64,000 nucleotides of DNA from Arcobacter sp. F2176 (GTDB taxonomy: Bacteria; Campylobacterota; Campylobacteria; Campylobacterales; Arcobacteraceae). The notes under the pieces were generated by a model that was given only the letters and a program-made list of their open reading frames with translations, did no database searches and was not told the origin of the DNA. Location of the stretch: NCBI RefSeq assembly GCF_004116465.1, contig NZ_PDJV01000008.1:62001-126000 (forward strand), written 5' to 3'. Shown one piece after another: positions 1 to 45,198 of the stretch. Numbering within the stretch: position 1 is the first letter of the stretch; every line of letters starts with the position of its first letter. Made by a program: the position numbers and the translations under genes.

Positions 1-2
1 AT

Positions 3-374
3 ATAAAGGAATATTTTGAATTACCATATAGAAATATTACAAATCCTAAGATAAATCTTTCAGAGCTAAGAGAAACCATTGCAAAAATAAAAGCAGATAA
101 AGGAGATACTCATTCACTTGATGAAATGACTCTTTTTCAAACATATAAGAGAATGAGAGATATAGAGGAAAATTCTAAAGTTAAAACAAAAAAAGCAAGA
201 CGTAAAAAAAGTTCAAAAAACCATTTAACCAAAAAACTTGAGCAAGAGAAAAAATTAGTGAAAGAAGAGATAGAAGAAAATCAAGAAGAACTTAGTAAAA
301 CAATTGTTAAAAATATAGAGATAGGAACACCAGAATTGTTTAGTTTTGATTTAATAGAGGAGGATGAAGTATGA
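3..374 (+). CDS. TnsB/TniA-like transposase, C-terminal fragment (5' end outside window)
   Basis: The frame is open to the left edge, so the first in-window ATG (126) is not the real start. The visible part begins with a segment containing LPYRN and ends with a charged tail rich in Lys and Glu. A short hydrophobic/acidic C-terminus follows. This fits the end of TnsB/TniA (Mu/retroviral integrase-type DDE transposases): a beta-barrel remnant, then a basic linker (KKARRKK), then the tail that contacts TnsC. The catalytic DDE domain lies outside the window. The stop overlaps the next gene by 4 nt (ATGA), showing translational coupling. Identification rests on this C-terminal pattern and the tniB-tniQ neighbours. 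Confidence 0.75.
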   Translation: MKEYFELPYRNITNPKINLSELRETIAKIKADKGDTHSLDEMTLFQTYKRMRDIEENSKVKTKKARRKKSSKNHLTKKLEQEKKLVKEEIEENQEELSKTIVKNIEIGTPELFSFDLIEEDEV

Positions 375-1228: not shown

Positions 1229-2405
1229 TCTCAAAAAAGAACTAAACTATCCATTTCAAATACATTTACACCCTTTAGAAGATGAACTTTTAAGCTCATG
1301 GCTAACAAGAATGGCTCATGCCCATTATATGTATCCTACAACCTTTTTAAATTTGCATATTAAAAATACAAGAAAAAATTCATATACTCGTAAAGACTTA
1401 GATTTTTATGACAATCAAGAGTTTTTTGATTTGTTAGCTATGAAGAGTATTTTGACAAAAGAAGAGCTACATAAGATATCTTTACGAAGTCAAGAAGGCT
1501 ATCTTTTTATAAATCAAAGTTTATATCCTCCACAGCAAATAAGAAGACTAATAGATAAAAGAACACACTTTGGCTTGATGTACTGCCCTAAATGTTTAGA
1601 AACCGATGAAATACCTTATTGGAGAAAGAAGTGGAGATACTTTTTTTATACAGCTTGTCCTAAACATAAGATTTTTTTAACTGATAGATGTTGGCATTGT
1701 TATAAACCAATAAAACTTTTAAAGACGGAATTAACGGATAAGATAAAATACTGTAGCAATTGTGGTGCAGATTTAGGTTTGACTGATACACATCAAGATA
1801 ATATCCCCGATGATTATGGCTTAGAAGCTATAAGATGGTTTGAAGAGGGTTTAGAAAGAGGATATTTTGAGATAAATGGACAAAAAGTTTGGTCTGTAAT
1901 GTTTTTTCATATCTTTTGTAGATTATATTATCTGTTAGATAGAAAACAAGATTTAGTTTTAAAAAACTTTTCAAAACTAGACGAATATAAATTAATATGC
2001 AAAAAATTAGAGGTTTATAATTCAAAAAAAGCAAGTGCTATTTATAAAACTTTTTATGTAAATAGTATGATTTATCATCTATTCAAAAACTTTCCTTTTA
2101 ACTTTTTAGATTTTATTCAATCTAATCATTTAACATATAAAGAGTTCACTCATGGACTTAAATATATACCTTATTGGTATGAACGAATGTTAAAAGAACT
2201 TATTCCTAAAGAAAATAAAAGTGGAAGAATAATTAGTGAAAGTGAAGTAATTGGTGCGATAAATTATTTAGAAAGACAAGATAAAATTGTAAATCAGAAA
2301 AATGTAGCCGAAATTGTAGGTTGCCATTTTACAATTCATAAGGGATTTGTAAAAATTTATAAAAATTCACAAAGTAAAATTTGTTTTACGTTTTCTCCAT
2401 CTTGA
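1225..2405 (+). CDS. tniQ: TniQ target-selection protein; frame broken by -1 at an A-AAA-AAG heptamer
   Basis: TniQ proteins choose the target and recruit the TniB/TnsC ATPase. From 1239 on, the frame gives a typical TniQ N-terminus (LSSWLTRMAHAH). Two zinc knuckles follow (CPKC with CPKH; CWHC with CSNC), then a C-terminal helix-turn-helix-like region. No ATG exists in this frame before 1311, and starting there would delete the conserved N-terminus. A start with a good ribosome-binding site (AAGGAG at 1214-1219) lies at 1225 in another frame: ATG ATC TCA AAA AAG AAC TAA. A -1 slip at 1233-1239 joins the two frames into a product of about 393 residues, close to Tn5053 TniQ. The break could be programmed frameshifting, a homopolymer mutation, or a sequencing error. 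Confidence 0.85.
1233..1239 (+). other. Candidate -1 ribosomal frameshift heptamer A-AAA-AAG at start of tniQ
   Basis: In the frame set by ATG 1225, the codons read TCA AAA AAG AAC TAA. The heptamer A AAA AAG is the X-XXY-YYZ slippery sequence used in E. coli dnaX and in many IS3-family transposases. A Shine-Dalgarno-like AGGAG lies 13 nt upstream, the kind of spacing that stimulates -1 slippage. After the slip, the first codon (GAA at 1239) is in the TniQ frame and the zero frame stops at 1243. I saw no strong downstream stem-loop. Confidence 0.55.
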
Positions 2406-5348
2406 AACTTCATAACCTATAGGAAGGGGTTTAAACTTAGGATTTAGAGAAGACTTTTTTTGTCTTTGAAATCTTCTTAATTCATCAAAGTTAATACTCC
2501 CTAAAACATAAAAGTCACTAATTCCCCCTTTTACACGAATTAAATCTCTTTTATAGGATTCCTTAAAAGGAACTCTTATTCTACTGTCACCATATGTTCT
2601 ATTGTTTATTTGTATAACAAATGAATGTAAATCATATGCAGTAGATTCTATTAGGGAATTAAATGTTTCAATATCTGAATTCCATTCTAAAATAAATAAA
2701 CCATCAATTTTACCTTGAAAAAAAGATCTATTTAGAATATTTGTAAGATCACTGCATATCAATAATCCAAAATAAAATTCACCATGTTTATAAATTGGAA
2801 GGTTTGTATTGGAAATTGGTGGTTCATATAGTTTTTTACTTTGTGTAGTTAAGTATTTTTTTTCAGCTAATGCTGGTTTTAACTTTGATTGTAAATAAAT
2901 TAAATTAGTTTTATATCCTGGCCAATCAGTAACTAGGGATAGTAAACTATCATTCTTCAAACCTTTTATTTTAGGTTCTGAATAATATTCTAAGCCACAT
3001 ATTAATGAAATTCCATGTTGGGCAAGCTTATATGCTATACTGAAGGCCCATCTTCTTGGTATACTACATTCAGGAAAAGTTATATAATTAATTTTGTTCT
3101 TTTCTTTTAGTATTTTATTAATTAATTGCGTTAGATTTGAGTATCTTTGAACAGACCTATCGGGGGTACCTTTTACAACAGCTTCCCATTGCTTATCCTC
3201 TGTTTTATAACTTGTTAAAGCAACAATAATTTGTTTATTTATAATTTTATTTGGAATATTAAGGAGTAATGTCTCATCCAAAGCTGAAAAGCCTATAATC
3301 TCATCACTTTTAACTCCTGCACCTCTTAATCCTAAGATAGCTCTTTTTAAGAGGCTTCTATTATGTAGTGTTTCTGGAATTATTAGTATAATTTCTTGTA
3401 GGGTTAGAGGTCTTGTGGGGAAGGTTAATGCTTTCCAATGAGGTATTTTTAAATTTGCAGCCTCTCTAAAGTACCTTATAGAAGCGAGTTTAAGTATTTT
3501 TTGAATAGATCTTCTTTTTGGTATATCTTTATCCTTCGCATCTTCAGTTTGAGAGTAATACCAATATTCTTTATATGGACGTTTCCCTAAATCTTTAATT
3601 AATAAGGTATTACTTAGTTTTTTTATAGAGTCTCTTCTAGAAGGAAGATTTTTATCTTGAGTAATATTTTGTAGCTTGCGTATAATTCTCCCAAGTTTCG
3701 TCCATTCCTCAAAGCCTTTAACTGTTGAAGAAACAAAAGCAGTTTCTATAAGGACTTTAACCATATATTGTTTATAGCTATTAAATTTAATTTGTATATC
3801 TGTTTTATCATCTGTAGTTTCTTCAAGGAGTTGAAAGGTAAAGATTAAATTATCGATAAACTCTGAAGCTTCTTTTAAATCATTACAAGCAATCATAATA
3901 GAGAATATTCTATTGTAATATCCTGTATAATCAAAAATACCTGAAGGTGCTAAGAGATATCTATTTATTAGAGTATAAAATTTTACTCTCAAATCTTTCC
4001 AATTACTTGATTTTAAGTCTTTTGCATAAGATTCAATATCTTTTAATAATAGTGAAAAGCCTAGCCTTTTTATAGAAACTACATCTGTTTTTCTAAGTGC
4101 ATCTGCTTCAAGGCTAGCATCTGCTGTACTAAGTAATGCTCTTGCTGCCATTTCAGAAGTTGAATCAGGTAGATTAGCTAATAAGCGATATTCACTAGAT
4201 TGAAGTTTAATTTGCTTATTAATATTATTGATTAAATCAAGACCATGTTCACTAGATAAATAGAATATTTTTTGCTTATCACTACCAAAAATTAAGGTTG
4301 AATCTAAACTATACTGAAAGTTAATTGTTAAACTATCATTATTTTTTTGCAAACATGGTATATTGGTAGTTATCCAATTCATTAGATTTTCTGCATTTTG
4401 AATCTCTTGGGGAGAATTAATAACTAAAAAAATATCATCTACATATCTACCATAGTAGAGAGGGTTAATGTGTTCGTTAATTTGCTTATCAAATTCATAT
4501 AATAAAATATTTGAGATTATTTTTGAAGCAGAAAGTCCTACGGGCAATGCACCCTCTGTTCGAGAATCGTAATCTGGAGTGTATTTATACCAAGTGTTCA
4601 TGGCACTAATAATTTCTTCTGTCAATAATTTACTATTTGTATCTAAAGTTACCCCAATAATCTTTAGAAATGTTGGGGCTAAAATAAAATTTGGACTTAC
4701 ATTATGATAAAATCTTGATAAATCCATTGTAATTGCATGAATATTCAATCCCTTTTCTACAGATATTTTCATTGTATCGAGACCTTTTTCTCTCCACTTC
4801 TTGTATGCTGAAAAATATGGTTGAAATAATCCTAAGGTATCTGTGTTAATTTCGCCTATCTCATCAGTTTTTTCTTTATATCTTCTAAGTCTATTTCCAT
4901 AGGTAAAGTTTTTATTAAGTTTTTCTTCAAATAGGTGACCTACTTTTAGAATCCAAAGGCTTGAAATAATATGAAAATTAACAGATGCATCAATGACTAA
5001 TCTATATGTAGTTTCGAGTTTTTTTTTGTTATTTAAATCAAATTGTCTGGACCAGTTTTCAAAAGGATCAAGACCTACATAGTGGCTTTTTTCTTGCCAA
5101 TTTGAAGTATTGATTGATTTAGGCATATAAAGGGAGTTTCCTAAGTATTCTTTATCTAAATGCCATAGTGTTTCTTTATCTTGTAATTTTTTTTGTAATT
5201 TTTTTAGGTTATTATCCAAATTTTCTTCATATTTGGCGAATGAAATGGAAGTTGGATGGTTACCATCATAAAAAGATTCAACTTTTGCTTTTTTGTAAGC
5301 TAAGTAGAGATCTGCTAATGTAATAAAATTATTAGAATATTTTTTCAT
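2367..5348 (-). CDS. Reverse transcriptase-nitrilase fusion, class 1 defence RT (DRT1-like)
   Basis: The 993-residue protein has an N-terminal reverse transcriptase with motif A (MDLSRFYHNV, about 208-217), motif B (ALPVGLSASKIISN) and the catalytic YVDD box at about 302-305. A long helical middle follows. The C-terminal third resembles the nitrilase/C-N hydrolase fold: FPECS supplies the catalytic Glu and LLICSDL the catalytic Cys. RT plus nitrilase is the architecture of DRT type 1 (UG1-like) anti-phage systems. The start at 5348 is preferred over an upstream in-frame start at 5441 because it lies 10 nt after the NurA-like stop. The 3' end overlaps tniQ, convergently, by 39 bp. No group II intron maturase features or retron msr/msd are evident. 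Confidence 0.85.
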   Translation of the reverse strand: MKKYSNNFITLADLYLAYKKAKVESFYDGNHPTSISFAKYEENLDNNLKKLQKKLQDKETLWHLDKEYLGNSLYMPKSINTSNWQEKSHYVGLDPFENWSRQFDLNNKKKLETTYRLVIDASVNFHIISSLWILKVGHLFEEKLNKNFTYGNRLRRYKEKTDEIGEINTDTLGLFQPYFSAYKKWREKGLDTMKISVEKGLNIHAITMDLSRFYHNVSPNFILAPTFLKIIGVTLDTNSKLLTEEIISAMNTWYKYTPDYDSRTEGALPVGLSASKIISNILLYEFDKQINEHINPLYYGRYVDDIFLVINSPQEIQNAENLMNWITTNIPCLQKNNDSLTINFQYSLDSTLIFGSDKQKIFYLSSEHGLDLINNINKQIKLQSSEYRLLANLPDSTSEMAARALLSTADASLEADALRKTDVVSIKRLGFSLLLKDIESYAKDLKSSNWKDLRVKFYTLINRYLLAPSGIFDYTGYYNRIFSIMIACNDLKEASEFIDNLIFTFQLLEETTDDKTDIQIKFNSYKQYMVKVLIETAFVSSTVKGFEEWTKLGRIIRKLQNITQDKNLPSRRDSIKKLSNTLLIKDLGKRPYKEYWYYSQTEDAKDKDIPKRRSIQKILKLASIRYFREAANLKIPHWKALTFPTRPLTLQEIILIIPETLHNRSLLKRAILGLRGAGVKSDEIIGFSALDETLLLNIPNKIINKQIIVALTSYKTEDKQWEAVVKGTPDRSVQRYSNLTQLINKILKEKNKINYITFPECSIPRRWAFSIAYKLAQHGISLICGLEYYSEPKIKGLKNDSLLSLVTDWPGYKTNLIYLQSKLKPALAEKKYLTTQSKKLYEPPISNTNLPIYKHGEFYFGLLICSDLTNILNRSFFQGKIDGLFILEWNSDIETFNSLIESTAYDLHSFVIQINNRTYGDSRIRVPFKESYKRDLIRVKGGISDFYVLGSINFDELRRFQRQKKSSLNPKFKPLPIGYEVSRWRKRKTNFTL

Positions 5349-5358
5349 TTCTTCGCAC

Positions 5359-6771
5359 TTATATAGTTTTAGAGTTACTAATTGACTCTTTTGTAAATAG
5401 TGTAAGCATTTTATTACTTGGAATATCTGAAAGTGACACAAGTTTATTTATTAGAGTAACTGGAATAAAAGCTCTATTATACATATCACACCGAAGTTCA
5501 CAAAGTATATTAATCATTGTTTTAAGATTTAAGAAATCTTCAACATTTGGGTTATTAATATATTTTATATAATCCATACATTTATTATTTTCACTAATGC
5601 AAGGAAGAGGAAAATCTACTACAAAGGATAAACTATTGTCAAGTTTATACATCATCTTTGTACCAAAATAAGTATTCTCACCAAAGACAGTTGACGTATC
5701 TCCTGTTATGTATTTTTTTATATATTTTAAGTTAGGTAAAACAAGAGTGTTATTTTTAATTTTATTTTCCATATTAGAAAGATGTTCAATAAACATACCA
5801 CTCTTTTCTAATCCTACGATATTTACAAAACTTCTTTTACCTTTAATCGATGCTTTATATAAAGTTTGAATAAAAGGTCTTACTACATATTTATTAAAAT
5901 CATCTAGCCTACTATATAAAGCTAAAGAACCATCTTTTATAAACATGCACTTTGCTAATTCTTGTGCTTTTTTATTTTCATGGGCTACCCTAAAAAAAGT
6001 TAAAATCAAACAGACTTCAAAAACACTCATTAAATAAGAAACTATACCTGTTGCACCATTAAAATCATCAACTAAATCATGTAAACTAAAAATATCTGTA
6101 AAATATATTATTTCTCCGCAATCACACTTAATAGTATCGTTAATACAATCATCATAGGTTGATTTTTTTTTAAAGGCTACTCTACTTTTACAATTATGGC
6201 AAGTTACACTAATTTCACCTTTACCTTTATTCTCATGACTAAGATATTCTTTAAAAGTAAGCCATTTAACAGTATTTAAAAGAGTACTTTTTGAATCTCT
6301 ATCAGTTAATTTATTTTCAAGAAAAATTTTGAAAATAGTTTCTCTTATTGTATTAACAAAGGTTCCTGTTTTAAATTTTATTATTTTAACAGGAAGCACA
6401 AAATGATATTTATATAAATTTTTTAATTTTCCAATATCATCAGGATCAATAGTTTGTTGTTCATTTAAGGTTTTAAGTAATTTTCTATCAAAGTATAAAA
6501 AGCCTAAACTATAATATGCAAGTTGAGCAGAAGGATAGTTGTCTTTTATCGTAACTATTTGATAGCCTCCATCTACAACGAAGATTTGTTCTATGTCTGA
6601 TTCCACTTTATCTTCTATAGTTGAAAAATCTGTACTAAATTCTTTAAGATCAAGATCTGATAAATGTTCAACATCAGGTATATAACAATTTTTTAAGTAG
6701 TCTTGAACCTTTTTATCATTAATAATATATTGATGATTAAATTTTGATGCTTTTTCCCCTGGTTGTCCCAT
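5359..6771 (-). CDS. NurA-like nuclease with zinc-finger insertion
   Basis: Seen: VDGG near residue 70, an IKDGSLALYSRL segment in the middle, a GLEKSGMF segment, and an N-R-A-F-I-P region near the C-terminus. These match the order of conserved acidic motifs in NurA, the 5'-3' DNA nuclease that partners HerA. A four-cysteine element (CHNC then CDC, about residues 190-220) is inserted between them and could bind zinc. ATG 6771 is chosen over a TTG at 6783 because it directly follows the HerA stop (TAA-C-ATG) and has GAGG upstream. At 470 residues it is longer than archaeal NurA. The adjacent HerA-like translocase supports the call. Confidence 0.65.
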   Translation of the reverse strand: MGQPGEKASKFNHQYIINDKKVQDYLKNCYIPDVEHLSDLDLKEFSTDFSTIEDKVESDIEQIFVVDGGYQIVTIKDNYPSAQLAYYSLGFLYFDRKLLKTLNEQQTIDPDDIGKLKNLYKYHFVLPVKIIKFKTGTFVNTIRETIFKIFLENKLTDRDSKSTLLNTVKWLTFKEYLSHENKGKGEISVTCHNCKSRVAFKKKSTYDDCINDTIKCDCGEIIYFTDIFSLHDLVDDFNGATGIVSYLMSVFEVCLILTFFRVAHENKKAQELAKCMFIKDGSLALYSRLDDFNKYVVRPFIQTLYKASIKGKRSFVNIVGLEKSGMFIEHLSNMENKIKNNTLVLPNLKYIKKYITGDTSTVFGENTYFGTKMMYKLDNSLSFVVDFPLPCISENNKCMDYIKYINNPNVEDFLNLKTMINILCELRCDMYNRAFIPVTLINKLVSLSDIPSNKMLTLFTKESISNSKTI

Positions 6772-6772
6772 G

Positions 6773-8743
6773 TTATACCTCAAATCTTTTGATTTGTACA
6801 GGGATAATAAAATTATTAGAATAAGTTTTTATTCTAGCATATCCTACATCACTATTTTTCATAATACTATCACTAAAATCACCAAAATCATAATATTTTT
6901 CTAAAGCTCTTAATTCATCCCTATTATTAAGATGAGAAATAAACCAATTTTGTGTATTTTTTAAGATACTTGAAGAAATTGAACTAACTTCTTGAGTAGA
7001 GTAACTAATACCAAGTTTTAGTTTTGCCCCCTCTTTGGCTAATCTATTGTAAATACTTTTTAAATCTTTATCATCTTTTGGAAAGATATTATGTGCCTCT
7101 TCAAAATACATCTGTATAAATTCAGGTTCTATATCCTCTGTAAATTTATTCATGGATTCATTAAAAATATGAGTACAAAGTCTTGTGATATAAGTCTTTT
7201 GAATTTGTTCACTAGCACTTGATAAATCCACTAGAACAATTTTTCCTTCTCTTAACAGTTTATCTATCTCAATTTTATAATCACTATCCCCATTAGTTGA
7301 GTGCAATTTAGAATATTCTAATAAAATTTTATAACCGCCACCTCTATTGGCGAGGAGCATATTATATAAAGCTTCATAATCTCTATCCCAAACATCTAAA
7401 CTTGTACTTTTTGATTTTACAGTTTGCATTAATTCATAATTAGTTTCAAACCATTTATCTGCATCTTTAATAGAAATTCCATCATTACTAATAGAGGCTC
7501 CATCTATACCTTTAAAATAAAGTTTGTAATTTTGATTAACTTTAAAGCCAGCTCTGTATAAAATACATTTGTATAGAGCAATTTTTCTAAGCCTATTACT
7601 TTTATAAAAAGATTTTTCTTTTTCATTTTTTTCAATATCATCTTCATCATAAGTATCAAATAATTTAACATTTTTAAAAGCACTTACATATTGTTTATCT
7701 TGAAACATCAATTGTTCACATAAAAAATCAAAGGTAAATTCTAACATAGAGTTATTGTAAAAATTATACTGCAAAGCTCTAACATCTGCATATTTATCAA
7801 CTTTTTTAGGAGATACAGAATACCTGATAACTGTTCCATTTGTACTAAATTTATCATAAATAGAACCAACATCTTGTTTATTAGGAAAAGTATATTCACC
7901 GTTTATGTCAAAGACAATTTGCCCTATAGCTTTTTTAAAGTTTTCACTTTCAGTTGTTAGTTGCTTTGTTTTATTGTGCTCGATAAATTTTTTATTTAAA
8001 TCAACTATAGCACTCATTACTATTTTAATAGTATTTGATTTACCAGTTCTTGTCATACCAAAGAATGCTGTTCTTCTTGCAACGATATCATTTGGTTTTA
8101 TGACAACAGGAACTGAATAATCACCTTGATTTAATAAAGTATAGGATTTACTTGAAGAGTACCTAAGATCTCCAATTTTTACCTCTAGATTAATTTCATC
8201 AGTGTCTTTTTCATTTTTAGAGTTTACAATCTTTGCTAGTTGTTCATTAGAGGGTTTAAATACTTTATATTTGTGTGCCCCTAAAAAGTTTTCAAGGTCT
8301 GTTCCAAATTTTAACTCTTTTTCTTCAAAAAAGAAAGTACCTAAAATTCTACAGTTCAAACCTGAAAATTGATAATAATTTTTAGTATAAACATCAGGAG
8401 ACAAATTCTTTCTAGCTTCAGGTTGTTCCATATAAGTGTCAATCATAGCTTCAATTATCATACTTGATTGAGGAATTTTCGCAATATCTACAACTCTCAA
8501 TAAAATTCCCTCTTTAGAATATTTTGATAGTTCATTATTATAAATTGCAATTAAGAAGGTACCATGAGGGAGCCCTTTTACATTAAGTTTCCATTTGTCA
8601 TTAGTAAGAATTTTTGCATTATTGTAATCTACTTCGTATGTAAACCCAACAAATTTTTCATCATTATATTCAATTGATTCGAAAAAACCACCTGCTATTT
8701 CTGATTGAGAATTTTTAGATGTGAGATTATCAAGAAATTCCAT
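6773..8743 (-). CDS. HerA-like hexameric DNA translocase ATPase (DUF87 family)
   Basis: The 656-residue protein has an N-terminal barrel-like region ending in KIGDLRYSSS, then Walker A GMTRTGKS at about 229-236. A Walker B region (FIQMYFEEAHNIFP) follows, then a sensor/arginine-finger region (YSTQEVSSISSSILKNTQN). This is the FtsK/HerA arrangement. HerA forms rings that pump DNA and activate NurA-type nucleases. A strong Shine-Dalgarno (AAGGAGAA) sits just upstream, and the gene is 4 nt from the methyltransferase stop. Next to a methylase, it likely acts as the motor of a restriction-like or phage-exclusion complex. That role is inferred. Confidence 0.85.
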   Translation of the reverse strand: MEFLDNLTSKNSQSEIAGGFFESIEYNDEKFVGFTYEVDYNNAKILTNDKWKLNVKGLPHGTFLIAIYNNELSKYSKEGILLRVVDIAKIPQSSMIIEAMIDTYMEQPEARKNLSPDVYTKNYYQFSGLNCRILGTFFFEEKELKFGTDLENFLGAHKYKVFKPSNEQLAKIVNSKNEKDTDEINLEVKIGDLRYSSSKSYTLLNQGDYSVPVVIKPNDIVARRTAFFGMTRTGKSNTIKIVMSAIVDLNKKFIEHNKTKQLTTESENFKKAIGQIVFDINGEYTFPNKQDVGSIYDKFSTNGTVIRYSVSPKKVDKYADVRALQYNFYNNSMLEFTFDFLCEQLMFQDKQYVSAFKNVKLFDTYDEDDIEKNEKEKSFYKSNRLRKIALYKCILYRAGFKVNQNYKLYFKGIDGASISNDGISIKDADKWFETNYELMQTVKSKSTSLDVWDRDYEALYNMLLANRGGGYKILLEYSKLHSTNGDSDYKIEIDKLLREGKIVLVDLSSASEQIQKTYITRLCTHIFNESMNKFTEDIEPEFIQMYFEEAHNIFPKDDKDLKSIYNRLAKEGAKLKLGISYSTQEVSSISSSILKNTQNWFISHLNNRDELRALEKYYDFGDFSDSIMKNSDVGYARIKTYSNNFIIPVQIKRFEV

Positions 8744-8747
8744 TATA

Positions 8748-10016
8748 TTATGTTCTCCTTTTTAGTATCATAATGCGGTCAACTTCAGTTGCTTTTCCTT
8801 TTTTATTTCCCCATATTTTAGTAACTTTAACTTCCCCATTTTCATTTAGGTTATCTGTAATAATATTCATTAGATTAAGTTTACAGCCACCATTTTTTTG
8901 TATCAAATTCCAAGTTTCCTGGGCAAGATTTAAAGTTTCACCTTTACCTTCATTTACATCTCCAATAACTACAAAAGCATAACCATCTTTTTTTAGTATT
9001 TCGTTCCAACTATTAAAAAGATCCTGCATGTATAGGGCATATTTTACAAGTGATAAATTGTCTGATAAGTTTTGTTTTTGGGTTTTATGGTATATACCAA
9101 CATTTTTATCTACTTTTTCTATATCTTCATCTAGAAGCCATAATCTTATCCAATTATATTTTCCATAATTAATTACTTTTAAATAAGGTGGAGAGGTTAC
9201 AATTAATTTAACACTTTCCTTCCCATATTTAGATTTTATTTTTGCAGAACTTTTAATTGCATCAGCATTAAAACAATACCCTTTAACATAGTTTTTTAAT
9301 GATTTAAAACTATTTTGTTGATCAATTGTATTTGTCGTCTCTTTTAAAATAGTTTCAACTCTATTTTTTATAAGATTAAAAACATTTTGTTTTGGTTTAG
9401 TTAGGCCATGTTTTTTTACAAAGTTTTTTATATAATTAGGAGACATACTAAAAGTATTAGGCATATCAATACTACAGTAGATAGAAGAACCATCTTTTCG
9501 TTGTTTACCGTGCATTAAACCTGTTAATATTGCTAAAATAAAGTTATCAATCTTTTTCTTTTTACTTAATTCTTTTTTTAAATATATTAGCTGAGCTAAA
9601 GTAGTTTCTTCATCGTATAAAATTTTTATGTCTTCAGAAATGTTATTAGTATCAGGTTTTATGTATCTCTTTTCAAGTTCATTAATACGCTTATGGATAT
9701 TTTTAATATTTAAAGGTAAGTTAGCCTTTGCTTTTGTTAAGCATACAGCCAATGGGTTTAAATCATTTCCAATACCAATTCTTCCCAATCTACATGCTTC
9801 AAAGATAGTTGTTCCTCTTCCTGAAAAAGGGTCAAAAACTAAATCATTTTTTTTTGAAAAGTTTTCAATAAAATAGTTTGGTAGGCTAGGTGGAAACATT
9901 GCAAGGTAAGCAGTCATTTGATGAATTTTAGAAAATGTTGAATATGAAAGTGTATTATAAGAAGATGAATTAATATTGTATTTAGAATCTCTAAAATATT
10001 CTGTCTTTATTGTCAT
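8748..10016 (-). CDS. DNA methyltransferase, TSPPY type (N4-cytosine or N6-adenine)
   Basis: The SAM-binding motif FDPFSGRGTT is at about residues 61-70 and the catalytic TSPPYL at about 274-279. The order motif I before motif IV and the DPFSGRGTT wording are typical of solitary or type II-like amino-methyltransferases. TSPPY often indicates N4-cytosine specificity, but N6-adenine cannot be excluded. A target-recognition-like stretch rich in Lys lies between the motifs. The ATG overlaps the upstream stop (TAATG), so it is translationally coupled to the DUF6471-like gene. Its likely job is marking host DNA so that the HerA-NurA pair spares it, which is inferred from context. Confidence 0.85.
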   Translation of the reverse strand: MTIKTEYFRDSKYNINSSSYNTLSYSTFSKIHQMTAYLAMFPPSLPNYFIENFSKKNDLVFDPFSGRGTTIFEACRLGRIGIGNDLNPLAVCLTKAKANLPLNIKNIHKRINELEKRYIKPDTNNISEDIKILYDEETTLAQLIYLKKELSKKKKIDNFILAILTGLMHGKQRKDGSSIYCSIDMPNTFSMSPNYIKNFVKKHGLTKPKQNVFNLIKNRVETILKETTNTIDQQNSFKSLKNYVKGYCFNADAIKSSAKIKSKYGKESVKLIVTSPPYLKVINYGKYNWIRLWLLDEDIEKVDKNVGIYHKTQKQNLSDNLSLVKYALYMQDLFNSWNEILKKDGYAFVVIGDVNEGKGETLNLAQETWNLIQKNGGCKLNLMNIITDNLNENGEVKVTKIWGNKKGKATEVDRIMILKRRT

Positions 10017-10243
10017 TAGGGTCTTTCAAACTTTATTTTTTGTACATCAATTGCAAGTAAACACTGAATAAAAAAGACACTACTAAAAGTTCCTCTATTA
10101 ATTTTAGTATTTATTGATTCTGGAGTTTCTAAAACTCCTAAGTTTTTTAATTTAATAGAAAGTTGTTCATAAGTTATATTTTTCTTTTTTATTTCTGCTT
10201 TCAATAAAGATTTAATATAATTCGACCATTTTTTATCTATCAT
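10016..10243 (-). CDS. DUF6471-like small DNA-binding protein
   Basis: This 75-residue protein starts with W-x-x-Y-I-K-x-L-L-K and contains an ITYEQLSIKLKNLG segment followed by a conserved-looking INRGTFSSVFFIQCLLAI. It matches my recollection of the DUF6471 family, small helix-turn-helix-like proteins often found beside DNA methyltransferases. It is the first gene of the defence operon and ends in a TAATG overlap with the methylase. It could be the operon repressor or a controller protein; the palindrome upstream fits that idea. The function is not established. Confidence 0.65.
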   Translation of the reverse strand: MIDKKWSNYIKSLLKAEIKKKNITYEQLSIKLKNLGVLETPESINTKINRGTFSSVFFIQCLLAIDVQKIKFERP

Positions 10244-10361: not shown

Positions 10362-11147
10362 TTAAATTACTAATTCTATCCCAATTGGACAATGATCCGA
10401 ACCTATTACTTCATCAAGAATAAAAGCATTCTTTAAATTGTTTTTTAAATCTTTTGAAATAAAAATATAATCAATTCTCCAGCCTTCATTTTTTAATCTT
10501 CCATTAGAACGATAGGACCACCATGTATATGCTTCTTTTTTTTCTCCATGTATAAATCTGTATGTATCAAGATAGTTTTTTTTAAGAAATTTATCTAGAC
10601 ACAATCTTTCTGTATCTGAAAATCCTGATTTTGAATGTATTTTTGTTTTTTTTAAATCTATATTTTTATGAGCAGTATTAAAATCACCACATATGATAAT
10701 AGATTTTCCTTCTTTTCTTAATCTTTCACTGTATCTATAAAATTTATTCAAAAAATTGATTTTATATTTTAGTCTTTTTTCTGATGATTTTCCATTTGGA
10801 ATATAAACATTAAAAATAACAATATTTTTATGATGGTGTTCAATAATTCTACCTTCACTTTTTATATCCACTTCTTCAGTAAAACTTTCGCTTTCCAAAT
10901 TTAAGTCTGTATAGGTCAAGGTTCCAGACATTCCTTTTACATTTCCACAGTTAATGGCAATATTTTTATAAACTTTGTTAAAGGTATTTGGGATGTCTTT
11001 TTCTTGAGTTCTAATTTCTTGTAAGCATAAAATTGTTGGTTTAAATGTATCAACCCAAAGTAAAGCTTTTTTATTAGAAATAGCTTTTATTCCATTTACA
11101 TTCCACGAAAAGATTGTTATTGTTTTAGTATTCAAAATTTTATCCAA
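10362..11147 (-). CDS. Exonuclease III / AP endonuclease family protein
   Basis: Members of this family cut DNA at abasic sites and degrade duplex DNA 3'-5'. Seen in order: FSWNVNGIKA, the metal ligand in LQEIR, a YIPNG segment, catalytic GDFNTAHK, GWRIDYIF, and the terminal GSDHCPI. All key residues are present. The 261-residue length is normal. The likely start is TTG at 11147, with another TTG four codons later; there is no clear ribosome-binding site. It lies on the same strand as, and just upstream of, the defence operon, but is separated from it by a promoter region. It may be cargo or chromosomal. Confidence 0.9.
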   Translation of the reverse strand: MDKILNTKTITIFSWNVNGIKAISNKKALLWVDTFKPTILCLQEIRTQEKDIPNTFNKVYKNIAINCGNVKGMSGTLTYTDLNLESESFTEEVDIKSEGRIIEHHHKNIVIFNVYIPNGKSSEKRLKYKINFLNKFYRYSERLRKEGKSIIICGDFNTAHKNIDLKKTKIHSKSGFSDTERLCLDKFLKKNYLDTYRFIHGEKKEAYTWWSYRSNGRLKNEGWRIDYIFISKDLKNNLKNAFILDEVIGSDHCPIGIELVI

Positions 11148-11270: not shown

Positions 11271-12203
11271 TTATTTTTTTATTATTAAATTAGTAATATA
11301 AGCTTCTGTTACTTTTCCTTTATTCTTCACAACAGTAACTTCTAATTTTCTTGCCTTATTATTATCTGCATCCTCAAATAGTTTAATATTATTTTCTGGT
11401 AATAATTTTGAAGTTGCCCAAAAAGTTTTTGGTTTCATTTCTTTATTGTGACTTTCTATTTTAATATTCCATCCATAGGTTTCTTTTGTAAAACCTTTAA
11501 TATTGAAACTTTCATTATATTTTGTGATAGTATCTTTTTCTTCTTCATCATAAGCAAATTTTTCAGCATCAGTTTCATTGTATAATTCTTTTTTTGTTTC
11601 ATCTGTTTGTATCTCTAATTCCTCATTTGTAGATAACATTTCAATAGCTGTTTTTATAGGTCTATTCTTTCTCACTTCAAGTTTTTTATTTTCTTTTAAA
11701 ATATCTATTGCATTGGAAGCAATTTCAAAAGCATCTGATTTATTTTTACTGTCTAAATAAATTTTTAATGTTTCTTTTTGAGTATCTAAATAATTTTGCC
11801 AAGAACTTGAAGAAAAGTATGCTAATATAGCAATTATTAGGGTTATTGAAATTTGTTTTCCAGTCATTTTATTAATTTGCTCCCATATTTCTTTTGGTAG
11901 ATCATTAAGAAAGTCTAATTGAATACTACCATCTTCAACTTTGAAAAATATTTCAGTTTCTCTTGCTTTTGATTTGCCAATAGTAGTTACTAAAAATTCT
12001 CTATAATCTTTTTTAAATGTAACTAACAAATCTGCAAAGTCTGCAGAAATATAACCATTATTAACTTTAAACTTTTCACCTTTAAATCTTAAGTTAAATG
12101 CAATAGGTTTTACTTCTTTAATTTCTATTTCTTTATCTTCTATTATAGCTAAAAGTAATTTTTCGAGGTCTTGCTTAGATTCAATGTTTATTAGTTCTTT
12201 CAT
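11271..12203 (-). CDS. Hypothetical protein with one central membrane helix
   Basis: I do not recognise the family. The 310-residue protein has a mixed alpha/beta N-terminal domain (1-135), then one hydrophobic helix with the core ISITLIIAILAYF at about 137-151. An acidic, Lys/Glu-rich linker follows, and then a C-terminal beta-rich domain (about 235-310). There is no signal peptide. It could be a membrane-anchored sensor or effector. It lies 55 bp downstream of the TnsE-like gene on the same strand, so the two may be co-transcribed. The 123 bp downstream is AT-rich with no obvious terminator. Confidence 0.6.
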   Translation of the reverse strand: MKELINIESKQDLEKLLLAIIEDKEIEIKEVKPIAFNLRFKGEKFKVNNGYISADFADLLVTFKKDYREFLVTTIGKSKARETEIFFKVEDGSIQLDFLNDLPKEIWEQINKMTGKQISITLIIAILAYFSSSSWQNYLDTQKETLKIYLDSKNKSDAFEIASNAIDILKENKKLEVRKNRPIKTAIEMLSTNEELEIQTDETKKELYNETDAEKFAYDEEEKDTITKYNESFNIKGFTKETYGWNIKIESHNKEMKPKTFWATSKLLPENNIKLFEDADNNKARKLEVTVVKNKGKVTEAYITNLIIKK

Positions 12204-12258: not shown

Positions 12259-13953
12259 TTAATGCCAATTAATTATATTTAGTAATCTTAATAACCATCT
12301 CTCCAGAACCTCTTCATGCTCATTTTCATCATTGATTTGAGCATGCCGATGAGTATTAAACTTTAGTGTATTTAAATCATTATAAGTATCTTTTATTTCT
12401 TGTAAAACCTTTTGTTCAGAATATCTCATCTCAAGAGCTTCAGTAATTGCATCTTCAAATATTTCATTTTTTGAAGCAATAACCCAAGTTGCAAAGTCAT
12501 TATGTTCTGACTCTACTTCAATTAAAACTATTTTTATGTCATTGTATTCAAAAGCACAAGTAACATATTGTTTTATTCTGTTATGGATAGAACATTGACT
12601 TGTTAGTTCATCACTTTTTGTATAGCTAACAGGTACATTCTTTGGTATGTCATTATATATAAATTCACTAACAAGATTAGAGTTTTCAATAAATTCAATA
12701 CTTTCTAAAAAGATATCAAAAGTAGGAGGTTTAGAAACTTCATTTTTATTATCATTATCTGTTTCTAATCTTGATTGTTGTGCTGTTTCATCACCAGAGT
12801 TTTCTCCTTTTGAAAAACTTACTGATACTTCACCTTTTTTTTCTTTGTCAGTTACTATAGGTACATTTGGGTTCTCTTCTTCAAGTGAGCCATATGTAAT
12901 ATCTTTATTTATTAATGATAGGTTTTGAGTATTTTCAATTTCTCTAATTTTGTTTGTACCATAAATCAAAGAAGGTGTATCAGTATTAACAGTTTTCTTT
13001 CTTTTTTTAGGTTTTCTACCTTTTATATGCAATCCCTCTTCATCATTTGGATCAATCTTCCTATCTTTTTTCTTTTTCTTTAAAATAGTAAGCTTTTCAA
13101 AATCTAAGGTTGAATCATCATTTTGTATTTCATTTACAAGATAAGTTTTTTTATTGCTAGAACTATCTTCTATTTCAATGTATCGTATTTTGATATTAAA
13201 AATTTCTCTTGTCGGGAATAAGGCTTTTATAGGGATTAAAACCGTAGGCTTTTTATCCATATCATTTTTAGTTTTAAATGCTGAAATATATCTTGAAAAA
13301 TCTACGAAACCTTTTTGTGCAATTTCATCTGTCAAAAATCTATATATAAATGGTCCATCAAGTTTAGAAGCATGTGACTCTAATACTAAGATAGCATCTG
13401 TCTTATCGCCTAGATTTGAATTTACACTATCATATAAAATAAATGGATTTCCTTTATACAAAGACTCTTTCATAGAAGAAGATTTAAAATAGTAATAAAG
13501 TGCTATAACATATGAAGGAATAATATATTTAGCATCTTCATTTTCATGTACATAGCAAAAGTTCCCTCCGTATTTAAAGGCATTAAAATCATTATTACCT
13601 AAAATATATTTGATACTATTTTTTGAAAGTACTTTATAAATAGGTTGTTGTTCTTTCATTTGTAAAGTATCAATTTCAAGATAATCTTCAAACTCATTTA
13701 AATCTTTATTAACGAGTTTACCTTCTTTATAAGTATTTCCTAGTTTAAATTTATATCTTAAAAGTTCTGGGGTGATTTCAACTGTTTCTAGATAGTTAGT
13801 CTTTATGTTTTGGAACTGTACTAAAAAGTTGTGGCTATTTTTATTATTGTGGTTATATTTTAATCCAAGAATAGCATTTAATTTAAAACTAGAATATTGA
13901 CCTTTTTCAGTTTGCATAAAATCAAGGGTCAAATTTCTAGTTGAAGTAGGCAT
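12259..13953 (-). CDS. 564-residue protein with a TnsE-like layout
   Basis: By eye, several stretches line up in order with Tn7 TnsE. One is an IPSYVIALYYYFKSSS helix (TnsE has an IPQLELARSLF-type helix). Another is an IEIEDSSSNKKTYLVNEI strand pair (TnsE has a VKGRSS...YLVEEI-type strand). A Lys-rich then Ser/Glu-rich linker follows (about 290-400), then a C-terminal domain with VLIEVES (TnsE: VLLEVDAS) and a final LERWLLRLL helix. TnsE is 538 residues and directs insertion into replicating DNA. The similarity is weak and remembered, not computed. Against it, the small TniB/TniQ type of element usually lacks TnsE, and the gene is far from tniABQ. It starts 31 bp from the mnmG stop. Confidence 0.45.
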   Translation of the reverse strand: MPTSTRNLTLDFMQTEKGQYSSFKLNAILGLKYNHNNKNSHNFLVQFQNIKTNYLETVEITPELLRYKFKLGNTYKEGKLVNKDLNEFEDYLEIDTLQMKEQQPIYKVLSKNSIKYILGNNDFNAFKYGGNFCYVHENEDAKYIIPSYVIALYYYFKSSSMKESLYKGNPFILYDSVNSNLGDKTDAILVLESHASKLDGPFIYRFLTDEIAQKGFVDFSRYISAFKTKNDMDKKPTVLIPIKALFPTREIFNIKIRYIEIEDSSSNKKTYLVNEIQNDDSTLDFEKLTILKKKKKDRKIDPNDEEGLHIKGRKPKKRKKTVNTDTPSLIYGTNKIREIENTQNLSLINKDITYGSLEEENPNVPIVTDKEKKGEVSVSFSKGENSGDETAQQSRLETDNDNKNEVSKPPTFDIFLESIEFIENSNLVSEFIYNDIPKNVPVSYTKSDELTSQCSIHNRIKQYVTCAFEYNDIKIVLIEVESEHNDFATWVIASKNEIFEDAITEALEMRYSEQKVLQEIKDTYNDLNTLKFNTHRHAQINDENEHEEVLERWLLRLLNIINWH

Positions 13954-13984
13954 TAAATTATCACTAACTAATGTATATTATCAT

Positions 13985-15865
13985 TTACTTTTGTATCTTA
14001 CATTGTAAATTTATATACAAATGAATAACATCAACTGCAGCTGGTGTTATTCCTGAAATTTCTCCTGCATTGAAAAGAGTTGGTGGTCTAAACTTTTCTA
14101 GCTTTTCGATTGCTTCATTTGAAAGTCCAGGGATTTCTTTATAATCAAAATTTTCTGGTATTTTTAATTGAATCATTTTTTTCATTTTTTCTATTTGTTT
14201 TTGTTGTTTTTCAACATATCTATAATATTTCGCTTCAATTATTATTTGCTCTTTTATATAGTTATCTAGCTCTTTAAATTGAGGGCAAAGTTCATCAAAG
14301 TTTTCTGTTGTAACACCATTTCTTCCAACTATATCAAGTAATAAAACTCTATCTTTGATTTTATCTTGTCCAAGTTTTTCTAGAAGTTCTAGATTCTCTT
14401 TTTTTGAAGTAAACCACTCTTCTTTCATAAAATCAATTGCTCCTTTTATACATTTTTCTTTGTATTGTACTTTTTGGATTGTTTCATCACTTATAAGTCC
14501 AATTTTATGACCGTACTCACTAAGTCTTATATCTGCTCCTTCTTCTCTTAGAAGTAGTCTATATTCTGCTCGACTTGTAAACATTCTATATGGTTCAGCT
14601 GTTCCTTTTGTAACTAAATCGTCAATCAAAACACCAATGTATGCTTCATCTCTTCTTAGGATTAAAGGCTCTTTATTATCAATTGCAAGTGAAGCATTGA
14701 TACCAGCCATTAGTCCTTGAGAAGCTGCTTCTTCATATCCTGTAGTAGCATTAATTTGCCCAGCATGATATAGGTTTTTTACTTTTTTAGTTTCAAGGGT
14801 ATGTTTTAGTTCTGTTGGGTCAACATAATCATACTCTATGGCATATCCATATCTCACAATTTTGGCATTTTCTAAACCAGCTATTGAGTGTATCATCTCT
14901 TTTTGAACATCAATTGGCATAGAAGTACTTAATCCATTGATATAATATTCTGTTGCCATTGCAGTTTGAGGCTCTAAAAACAGTTGATGTCTATCTCTCT
15001 CAGAAAATCTATTTACCTTATCTTCAATACTTGGACAGTATCTAGGTCCACTTCCTTTGATTTGTCCAGTAAATAGAGGTGCTCTGTGGAAATTACTGCT
15101 TATTTTCCCATGTGTTCCCAAGTTTGTATATGTGATATAACAAGGGTGTTGTTTTGGGTTAAAAGTTGACTTATCTGTTCTAAATGAGAAAGGAGTTGGT
15201 TTTTCATCTCCTCCATGCTCTTCCATTTTTGAAAAGTCTATTGATTTTGCATCAATTCTTGCAGGTGTTCCTGTTTTTAATCTTCCAACATTTAGTCCAA
15301 ACTCTTTTAGCTGTGTTGATAAAGTAGAAGAGGGTAATTCCCACGCTCTTCCCGCATCATAAGTTGAAGTTCCTATGTGAATAAGACCTTTCATAAATGT
15401 TCCCGTTGTAAGGATTACTTTTTTTGATTCGAACTCTTCACCAAGTTTTGTTTTTACACCACAAACCTCAAGACCATTTTCATCTTTTGTTAAAAGTGAA
15501 CTTACTTCATCTTGATAGATTTCTAGATTTTCTGTATTGTGACATACTTTTCTCATGTATGTTCTATATCTATCCATATCAATTTGTGCACGACTTCCTT
15601 GAACTGCTGCACCTTTAGAAGCGTTTAATATTCTAAATTGAATACCTGCACTATCTGTACAAAGTCCCATCTCTCCACCAAGGGCATCTAATTCTCTTAC
15701 TAAATGTCCTTTTGCCAATCCACCAATAGCGGGGTTACAACTTGCTGCTCCGATTTGTTCAACTAGCATAGTTACAAGAAGAGTTTTTTTACCCATTCTT
15801 GCACTTGCCAATGAGGCTTCAATTCCAGCATGTCCTCCACCGACTACGATTACATCATATTTCAT
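13985..15865 (-). CDS. mnmG: tRNA uridine-5-carboxymethylaminomethyl modification enzyme, FAD subunit
   Basis: MnmG (GidA) works with MnmE to make the cmnm5/nm5 modification at U34 of several tRNAs. The Rossmann FAD motif [11 protein letters not shown] is at the N-terminus, with the signatures [18 protein letters not shown] and [14 protein letters not shown] further on. The C-terminal helical domain is complete. I place the start at ATG 15865, with GGAG just upstream and [11 protein letters not shown] following, rather than at a TTG seven codons earlier (15886). It is 626 residues long, normal for the family. It is divergent from ribE. Accessory DNA begins directly after its stop. Confidence 0.97.
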
Positions 15866-16037
15866 TTTATCTCCATAAGTATACAATTGTCTAATGTATC
15901 TTTATCTTTTTTTGTTTATATTGAAAAGTGTTTGAAAGTTAGGTTAAAAAATTAGAATAGTTTAAAATTAGCTTCTCAATAAGTTTTCGGTATTATACCA
16001 AATATTTCAAGATTTACAGCAATTTTAAAGGAAAAAC

Positions 16038-43500: not shown

Positions 43501-45198
43501 ATGTTTAAACTACAAGAACTTGAAAACCTAAAACAAAATTTAACTATTGAAGAAGTATTAGAACTTCTTTATACGCTAGTAGTGTTGAAAAAGTTATCTG
43601 CTATCCCTCATACTAGAATTAACTTATTTAATGAGAAAAGTATACGATTTGAAGATTTAAAAAGTCAATTAAAAGAAGTAAAAAATATATATGATGTTAC
43701 TGAGATATTAGATGGACTTGAAAAAATCGAAAATGTTAAAGATGATTTATTTATTGAACTTTTTAATATTTCACAAAATGTAGAAATACCTTCAATTTAT
43801 GAAGCTTTTGAATATAGAGAAGGTTTACATACATCTGTAGTATCAAAACAAATTGTTGAATTAAGTATAAAACTTCTGGACGAAGAAAATGAGTCACCAA
43901 TTTATGTACCATTTAAAGATGGTTTAAAAGTCTCAGAGTTAACTACTAGAAAAGTTTGTTGTGAATATGATGATTCTAAGAAAAGTTTTGTTGCTTCATT
44001 GTTAAGGTTGTGGGATAATAAAAAAATAGATTTTAGATTAACAGATAGCTTAGAAAAACCAAAATTTTCACAAGAAAATTCATTAGAAAAATTTGATTCT
44101 GTTATTGCATTTCCACCATTAAGTTTAATGAAACAATTTGATACGATGGGGGATAAATTTAATCGATTTAAGATTCATAAGAATGTTAAAAGATTAGATG
44201 TTGCACATTTCGAACATGTAATATCTCAAACAAAAAACAAAGCTGTGATTTTGATGCCAGTGGGATTCACCTTTCGATCTGGTATTGAAGAAGAATTTAG
44301 AAAGTATTTAATAGAAAATAATATTCTTGAAACAATGATACAGTTGCCCCCTAACATGTATTCTGCAACATCAATTGAAACAACACTTTTTATTATTAAT
44401 AAAAATAAGAATAATAAAAATATACAGTTTATAAATCTAAAAGATGAAAAATTTTTAACTAAAATCGGACGTAAAACGGTTTTAAAAGATATTAATGAGA
44501 TAGTAAAAATTTATTTAGAGAAAAAAGTTGAGAGTCATAGTAGAATTATTTCTTACGAGGTAATTAAGAACAATAATTTTAATTTTTCAATTGATAGATA
44601 TATTACAAAAAATGAGAGTATTCCCTCATCCTTCAAATGGATAAAGTTAGAGAATGTATCAATAATCAGAAAATCACAAACATTAAAAGATGTAGATGAT
44701 GGCGAAAATGTAGTTGAGTTATCACCATCAGATTTTTCATTTGCAGGATATACAATTAGTGGAAAGAAAATTAAAAAAATAAATATTAATGAAAAACAGT
44801 TTGAAACTTATAAATTAAAGCCTTATGATATTCTAGTTAGTGCAAAAGGAGTTGTAGGAAAAATAGGAATTGTAGGTGAAAATATAAATTATCTTCTTGC
44901 TTCACAAGCAATACAAGTAATTAGACTTGAAAAGGATAACGACATAAAAAGTGAAGCCATCTGTTTATATATGTATTTAAAGTCAGATATTGGACAAAAG
45001 GCATTAATGAAAATTGTTCAAGGTACTGCAATGCCTCAAATATCTACAAAAGAATTAAAGAATTTTAATATACCAAAATTAAGTGTACTTGAAAAATCTA
45101 ATGTTATAAATACATTTAATAAAGAGATTGAAAAATATGATGAGATTGCAAAGTTGCAAAATGATATTTTAAAAATTCATGCTAATTATCTAAAGTAA
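43501..45198 (+). CDS. HsdM-HsdS-like fusion with degenerate methyltransferase motifs
   Basis: The protein has 565 residues. The first two thirds follow the N6-adenine methylase (HsdM) plan, including the late LIENNILETMIQLPPNMYS region. The SAM-binding DPxxGSG motif is replaced by VPFKDGL, and the catalytic NPPF/Y by AFPPLS, so methylation is doubtful. The last roughly 190 residues resemble one type I specificity (HsdS) half with a target-recognition domain (KWIKLENVSIIRK to MPQISTKELKNF). No restriction subunit is nearby. It could be a DNA- or methylation-sensing module. A small membrane protein follows after 19 bp. Confidence 0.75.
   Translation: MFKLQELENLKQNLTIEEVLELLYTLVVLKKLSAIPHTRINLFNEKSIRFEDLKSQLKEVKNIYDVTEILDGLEKIENVKDDLFIELFNISQNVEIPSIYEAFEYREGLHTSVVSKQIVELSIKLLDEENESPIYVPFKDGLKVSELTTRKVCCEYDDSKKSFVASLLRLWDNKKIDFRLTDSLEKPKFSQENSLEKFDSVIAFPPLSLMKQFDTMGDKFNRFKIHKNVKRLDVAHFEHVISQTKNKAVILMPVGFTFRSGIEEEFRKYLIENNILETMIQLPPNMYSATSIETTLFIINKNKNNKNIQFINLKDEKFLTKIGRKTVLKDINEIVKIYLEKKVESHSRIISYEVIKNNNFNFSIDRYITKNESIPSSFKWIKLENVSIIRKSQTLKDVDDGENVVELSPSDFSFAGYTISGKKIKKININEKQFETYKLKPYDILVSAKGVVGKIGIVGENINYLLASQAIQVIRLEKDNDIKSEAICLYMYLKSDIGQKALMKIVQGTAMPQISTKELKNFNIPKLSVLEKSNVINTFNKEIEKYDEIAKLQNDILKIHANYLK

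Follow-up and report, generated by a model that had tools for sequence, protein, structure and literature searches.

Five adjacent genes on the minus strand of Arcobacter sp. F2176 DNA raise the question of whether they form one defense system or two that share an operon. The stretch analyzed here, 64,000 nucleotides in length, is referred to as the window, and the genes occupy positions 2367 to 10243 within it. A preliminary description had placed a DUF6471-like protein, a methylase, HerA, a NurA-like nuclease, and a reverse transcriptase (RT)-nitrilase on this strand, and the ORFs and family searches agreed on all five. In order of transcription, they encode a small DUF6471 protein of 75 amino acids (10016 to 10243; PF20075, 1e-25), a DNA methylase of 422 amino acids (8748 to 10016; N6_N4_Mtase PF01555, 6.9e-19; PADLOC MTase_II, 3.6e-40), a HerA-type hexameric translocase of 656 amino acids (6773 to 8743; DUF87 PF01935, 2.2e-9; PADLOC HerA, 2e-15), a NurA/TdpB-like nuclease of 470 amino acids (5359 to 6771; assigned by the fold match of its AF2 model to TdpB and NurA), and an RT-nitrilase of the UG5 family of 993 amino acids (2367 to 5348; PADLOC RT_UG5-nitrilase, 4.8e-288, versus 3.8e-32 for Drt1a). 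No domains other than DUF6471, N6_N4_Mtase, DUF87, NurA, and RVT_1 were identified in the five genes, and the DISARM and BREX markers drmA/drmB and pglZ/brxC were absent from their PADLOC matches.

The junctions were read from the DNA. The DUF6471 and methylase genes overlap by one base (TAATG), 4 bp separate the methylase from HerA, and 10 bp separate NurA from the RT-nitrilase, all as first described; the HerA/NurA gap, previously given as 2 bp, is 1 bp (TAA-C-ATG). The 3′ end of the RT gene lies inside the convergent tniQ gene, with an overlap of 39 bp. On the operon strand, no terminator-like sites were found within the five-gene block, and the promoter-like sites in the scan were at chance level (66 against 53 +/- 9 expected). 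Thus, a single transcript covering all five genes is predicted to be likely.

The operon is carried as cargo by a ∼17.6-kb Tn7-like transposon spanning contig positions 58440 to 76002 (window 14002). The tnsA gene (220 amino acids; PF08722, 2e-13; PF08721, 7e-8) lies just upstream of tnsB and outside the window (L137:9824-10483). On the plus strand, the 3′ part of tnsB/tniA is at window positions 1 to 374 (gene L137:10476-12374; 632-amino-acid protein; Mu-transpos_C, 6.8e-9; rve, 1.6e-4), followed by the tnsC/tniB ATPase gene (371 to 1228; PF05621 TniB, 1.5e-52) and that of the target selector TniQ (1311 to 2405; PF06527, 9.8e-13). The TniQ match began at profile position 19; the N-terminal part is apparently encoded in another frame upstream (1226 to 1311), beside an A-run, and the break could represent a frameshift, slippage, or an assembly error. 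Upstream of the operon on the minus strand are two further cargo genes, one for exonuclease III (xth; 10362 to 11147; TIGR00633, 1.1e-70) and one for a 310-amino-acid protein with no family match above the cutoff (11271 to 12203). The right end of the element carries, also on the minus strand, a gene for a TnsE-like protein of 564 amino acids (12259 to 13953). Its assignment draws on a homologue in G044 (L154:5382-7088), which matched PF18623 (TnsE_C) at 6e-4, below the cutoff; the AF2 model, built from an alignment of 3 sequences, was poor (pLDDT, 34).

Both ends of the transposon were located. The right terminal inverted repeat (13978 to 14002) reads TGTAAGATACA... inward and the left end reads TGTGAGATACA at contig position 58440; the repeats have the form TGT...ACA and are identical at 24 of their first 35 bases. 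A 5-bp target duplication (TTGTA, 14003 to 14007) is repeated at the left end and is present as a single copy in G122 (L157), a genome of the same genus in which alignment identified the empty site. The target is mnmG (gidA; 13985 to 15886, minus strand), which is 99% identical to the mnmG gene of G122. Insertion occurred in its last codons, and the right repeat encodes new last codons and a stop codon. Related elements were found at the same site in two other Campylobacterota genomes, G044 and G009, where the TnsE-like gene also adjoins mnmG. A Tn7-like family targeting the last codons of mnmG, and rewriting the MnmG C terminus, was observed in several Campylobacterota (window 13978 to 14007; L154, 5299; L155, ∼11440; L159, 6366 and 13790), with L159 (G330) holding a relict element with a truncated TnsE-like gene. 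The overall layout resembles that of Tn6022 and Tn7-like elements, with TnsA, TnsB, TnsC, and TniQ encoded at one end, an opposite-strand TnsE-like gene at the other, a 5-bp duplication, and defense cargo. In Tn6022, TnsE-like genes are distant from tnsABC and in the opposite orientation (PMC10293859), and the cargo of Tn7-like elements is rich in defense genes (PMC8649781). The window element differs in its target, the 3′ end of mnmG, which was not found as a target in the main text of PMC8649781 or PMC10293859.

Whether the RT-nitrilase and the other genes belong together was addressed through their occurrence elsewhere. A HerA scan of 84,980 species genomes identified 94 relatives; the best 80, together with the window, made up the set of 81 HerA loci. 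No RT-nitrilase was found within the fetched flanks (≤10 kb) of any of the 80 other loci, and a search for the UG5 RT-nitrilase anywhere in the genome returned none in 40 genomes carrying the methylase-HerA-NurA cassette, the same family search having matched other genomes. Across 397 Campylobacterota genomes, HerA was present in 16 and the RT-nitrilase in 8, with both only in the window genome. The one dedicated five-gene system first proposed is therefore not what the sample holds: its parts occur apart, the window being the only joined case. As the combination is unique in the sample, it is not a new multigene system, and the finding of wider reach is the three-gene cassette. Judged from these sequence searches, the UG5 RT-nitrilase is a module separate from the cassette. 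The preliminary description had also offered the alternative of two stacked systems sharing a promoter, and it is this alternative that agrees with the separate occurrence of RT and cassette elsewhere.

The best explanation, to which we give a probability of roughly 0.7, is that the operon is defense cargo of the Tn7-like transposon and stacks two independent anti-phage modules. The first, methylase-HerA-NurA plus DUF6471 as a small methylase partner, would carry out modification-dependent DNA degradation. The second would be the UG5 RT-nitrilase, a self-contained abortive module added in the 3′ slot downstream of NurA and presumably cotranscribed with the first. A restriction module with an abortive one appended in this way is plausible; the two might be functionally linked, but no such link would be needed.

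The RT-nitrilase had been described as a DRT1-type abortive module. The abortive-type reading is retained here as a prediction; membership of DRT1 (UG1) was rejected, as the protein scored 956 bits with the UG5-nitrilase profile and 109 bits with Drt1a (PADLOC profiles). The UG5 profile spans residues 30 to 1020 of the 1,024-amino-acid ORF, and the next best profile reached 1.9e-51. The RT motif YVDD is at residues 302 to 305, and D304 and D305, together with E760, K822, and C865 of the nitrilase, do not vary among 8 aligned UG5 proteins. DRT1 (PDB 9yfd; PMC13275509) has the same layout of an RT with a C-terminal nitrilase and is likewise a class 3 UG/Abi RT, but by profile score its family is separate. 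In DRT1, protein-primed DNA activates the nitrilase and defense is by abortive infection; the system has been linked to the phage helicase Dda, and its priming serine is reported not to be conserved in other class 3 RTs (PMC13275509). By analogy, protein-primed DNA synthesis would control the toxic nitrilase domain of the window protein.

A UG5 RT-nitrilase from a P4-like satellite, encoded there with a partner containing one transmembrane segment (1-TM), confers protection on E. coli in the absence of HerA (PMC9122126). The window protein matches the UG5-nitrilase profile over its full length and has intact RT and nitrilase active sites; however, it lacks the 1-TM partner, which only some UG5 members have and which does not define the RT family, and is appended to a restriction-type operon. 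The closest RT relatives (50% and 47%) are on prophage contigs (L191 and L192), each beside a small 1-TM protein, and tblastn searches with the partners from L191, L192, and L193 found no match in the window or the element. Since the partner of its closest relatives is missing here, the window RT may rely on a different factor. The E. coli UG5 copies are also without a 1-TM partner.

The survey of RT relatives covered about 1,100 genomes and, in addition, viral contigs, plasmids, phages, and E. coli. Stand-alone UG5 RT-nitrilase genes were present in 253 of 5426 E. coli genomes, beside AbiE, and the gene was also found alone in prophage contigs, a Sinorhizobium meliloti plasmid, G338, G642, and others. 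Alphaproteobacteria gave one partial RT match and the phage records none. Against the viral contigs, single RT and HerA proteins gave no match, and the RT alignment reached the prophage relatives. Matches in G351 and G315 were left out of UG5, as they belong to a different three-gene set of a primase-like protein, an RT, and a separate nitrilase. In L143 (7403-12418) and L144 (4413-9554), this arrangement comprised a 335-amino-acid zinc-finger primase-like protein, an RT of ∼1,060 to 1,090 amino acids, and a separate nitrilase-like protein.

In four of approximately fourteen separate UG5 contexts, the window among them, the RT lay inside or against another multigene DNA-targeting operon. A type I restriction-modification (R-M) operon in G239 (L141:1099-13726) has the order HsdM, HsdS, RT (4-bp overlap), GHKL, Schlafen-like protein, and HsdR. 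The DISARM operon of G690 (L271:1231-17093) has DrmMI, a gap of 16 bp, the RT, and then DrmA, DrmB, and DrmC; its DrmMI gene is interrupted by a transposase gene, read as IS66-like. In G952 (L278:735-13431), a helicase-like gene and the RT with its nitrilase precede a four-gene block which, by our reading of size and sequence, is a candidate Wadjet JetABCD. In two other operons, 16 bp or less separates the UG5 RT from a methylase or specificity gene; this hints that more than chance lies behind the stacking and counts against two independent modules. Additionally, 15 Bacteroidota loci (L030, L044, L046, L056, L059, L068-L070, L072-L074, L076, L077, L081, and L040) have Septu PtuA-PtuB in the slot directly after NurA, and 14 of these show an overlap of 4 bp; this assignment was profile-verified in L070 only. 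The PtuA following NurA has an HNH-like N-terminal part. Given the UG5 RTs embedded in other operons and Septu after NurA, the appending of a second defense to such operons is, on gene order, recurrent. The operon end can thus be regarded as a slot for second defenses (Septu or RT-nitrilase), and mutual guarding of stacked modules becomes testable.

The anticodon nuclease PrrC acts as a back-up for EcoprrI, and the RT-nitrilase could similarly kill the cell once inhibition or overload has disabled the restriction arm. The tight junctions of the five-gene operon favor such a layered guard, as do the UG5 RTs in the type I R-M and DISARM operons and before the Wadjet-like block and the presence of Septu in the same slot in Bacteroidota. 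We nevertheless consider it unlikely, if conceivable: UG5 RT-nitrilases are mostly free-standing, the pair with the 1-TM protein protects alone (PMC9122126), DRT1 is tied to Dda and not to failing restriction (PMC13275509), and defense genes mostly cluster with other defense genes anyway. Equally doubtful is its broader form, in which the UG5 RT-nitrilase would repeatedly have joined modification-based restriction operons as a guard, by independent additions to methylase-HerA-NurA, type I R-M, DISARM, and Wadjet-like operons, making one layered system whose toxic nitrilase fires if the restriction arm is inhibited.

The first of the two stacked modules was characterized across the 81 HerA loci (the window and the best 80 of 94 relatives). 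NurA was directly downstream of HerA in all 81, and a methylase was upstream of HerA in 69. Of the 12 loci without a methylase, 4 were at a contig edge and 4, from cyanobacteria, had an HTH gene instead; in the latter (L013, L014, L019, and L028) this small gene precedes HerA-NurA. Cassette loci among these best 80 relatives span over ten phyla, including Campylobacterota, Cyanobacteriota, Bacteroidota, Bacillota, Chloroflexota, Pseudomonadota, Planctomycetota, and Patescibacteria, and at least one archaeon, a Methanosarcina; most lie outside transposons of the window element's family. All 60 relatives compared share the HerA Walker A motif (GMTRTGKSN), and D67, D226, and E252 of the NurA-like protein are invariant in 40 sequences. 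Protein distances co-vary between HerA and NurA (r, 0.92) and between HerA and the methylase (r, 0.78; Mantel p ≤ 0.0005; n = 60), which in part reflects shared descent of the hosts.

The methylase varies among loci. Most relatives have a PvuII-type enzyme of 320 to 340 amino acids (profile versus 1boo, 2e-90), whereas those of the window, Helicobacter, Deferribacter, L017, and L052 (the last two with tns-like genes) are ∼395 to 430 amino acids. The motif order of the window methylase is reversed, with the motif I-like DPFSGRGTT before TSPPY, and it and the PvuII-like methylases of cassette relatives are different, circularly permuted types. Thus, HerA-NurA was retained while the methylase was exchanged. 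Methylase-HerA-NurA is, by these comparisons, a conserved stand-alone cassette. No named methylase-HerA-NurA system was found in the open literature searched, PADLOC 2023, or NCBIfam models; absence from PADLOC 2023 and open-access literature is not proof that the cassette is unnamed, and it is described here as widespread and apparently unnamed as a system.

TdpABC is a phosphorothioation-based system in which the TdpAB pair degrades unmodified DNA and tdpC is the phosphorothioation gene. The nearest solved relative of the window HerA is TdpA (8wet, 8e-20), and the AF2 model of the NurA-like protein (pLDDT, 86.3) had its best fold match in TdpB (8wfd; Z, 20.9; rmsd, 4.3; 319 residues), with NurA structures of RNase H-like fold scoring lower (2ygk, Z 13.0; 7f6d, Z 11.7). 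Pfam NurA gave 18.3 bits, below the 21-bit cutoff, and a search of PDB sequences with the NurA profile found no NurA chain, the match being via fold comparison only. Given these likenesses of HerA to TdpA and of the NurA-like protein to TdpB, the cassette looks like a methylation-coupled relative of TdpABC (8wet, 8wfd, and 8y1k), with which it shares a modification gene, a translocase, and a nuclease. It differs in having a DNA methylase in place of the phosphorothioation enzyme, tdpC being absent among the domains of the five genes, and in the size of its NurA-like protein (470 versus 358 amino acids). The earlier view of methylase plus HerA-NurA as a restriction-type module is retained here, and the solved relatives point to a methylation-coupled form of TdpABC that would occur across many bacterial phyla and in at least one archaeon. 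From the likeness to TdpAB, the cassette probably works like TdpABC: the methylase would mark host DNA, the HerA hexamer would thread unmarked incoming DNA in a process blocked by modification, and a NurA-like dimer would cut the threaded DNA. Compared with type II R-M systems, the module similarly combines an N6/N4-type methylase, a linked nuclease, here NurA-like and putative, and the small DUF6471 partner; however, the HerA-NurA pair stands in place of a classical restriction endonuclease.

Classical HerA-NurA resects DNA ends, and methylase-HerA-NurA could instead serve the transposon in DNA repair or maintenance, with no role in defense. Structures of NurA and of HerA-NurA complexes do match, an exonuclease III gene adjoins, and in the related transposons of G044 and G009 a different HerA-NurA pair (HerA, 32 to 33%) lies beside the TnsE-like gene. 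This explanation is improbable given the co-conservation of the methylase across over ten phyla, the defense pair TdpAB as the nearest solved relatives, the appending of Septu in Bacteroidota, and the location of the cassette mostly outside transposons of this family. Least probable is one obligate system needing all five proteins: the operon is continuous, with gaps of ≤10 bp, but the cassette and the RT are apart in every other locus seen, and DUF6471 was not found upstream of the methylase in other cassette loci.

DUF6471 was present in 22 of the 397 Campylobacterota genomes. In these Campylobacterota loci (L164-L187), 10 proteins encoded beside DUF6471 were tested, and eight proved to be DNA methylases of several unrelated kinds, comprising N6_Mtase, D12, C5, EcoRI-type, Eco57I-type (weak), and N6_N4 enzymes. 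Further neighbors show methylase motifs. On the basis of these neighborhoods, DUF6471 is probably a small protein that regulates R-M methylases or acts as their partner, which would account for its place in the operon and gives it a working role beside DNA methylases. Elsewhere in the window, the L141 HsdM has a homologue (35%) at positions 43501 to 45198, which may represent another type I R-M gene.
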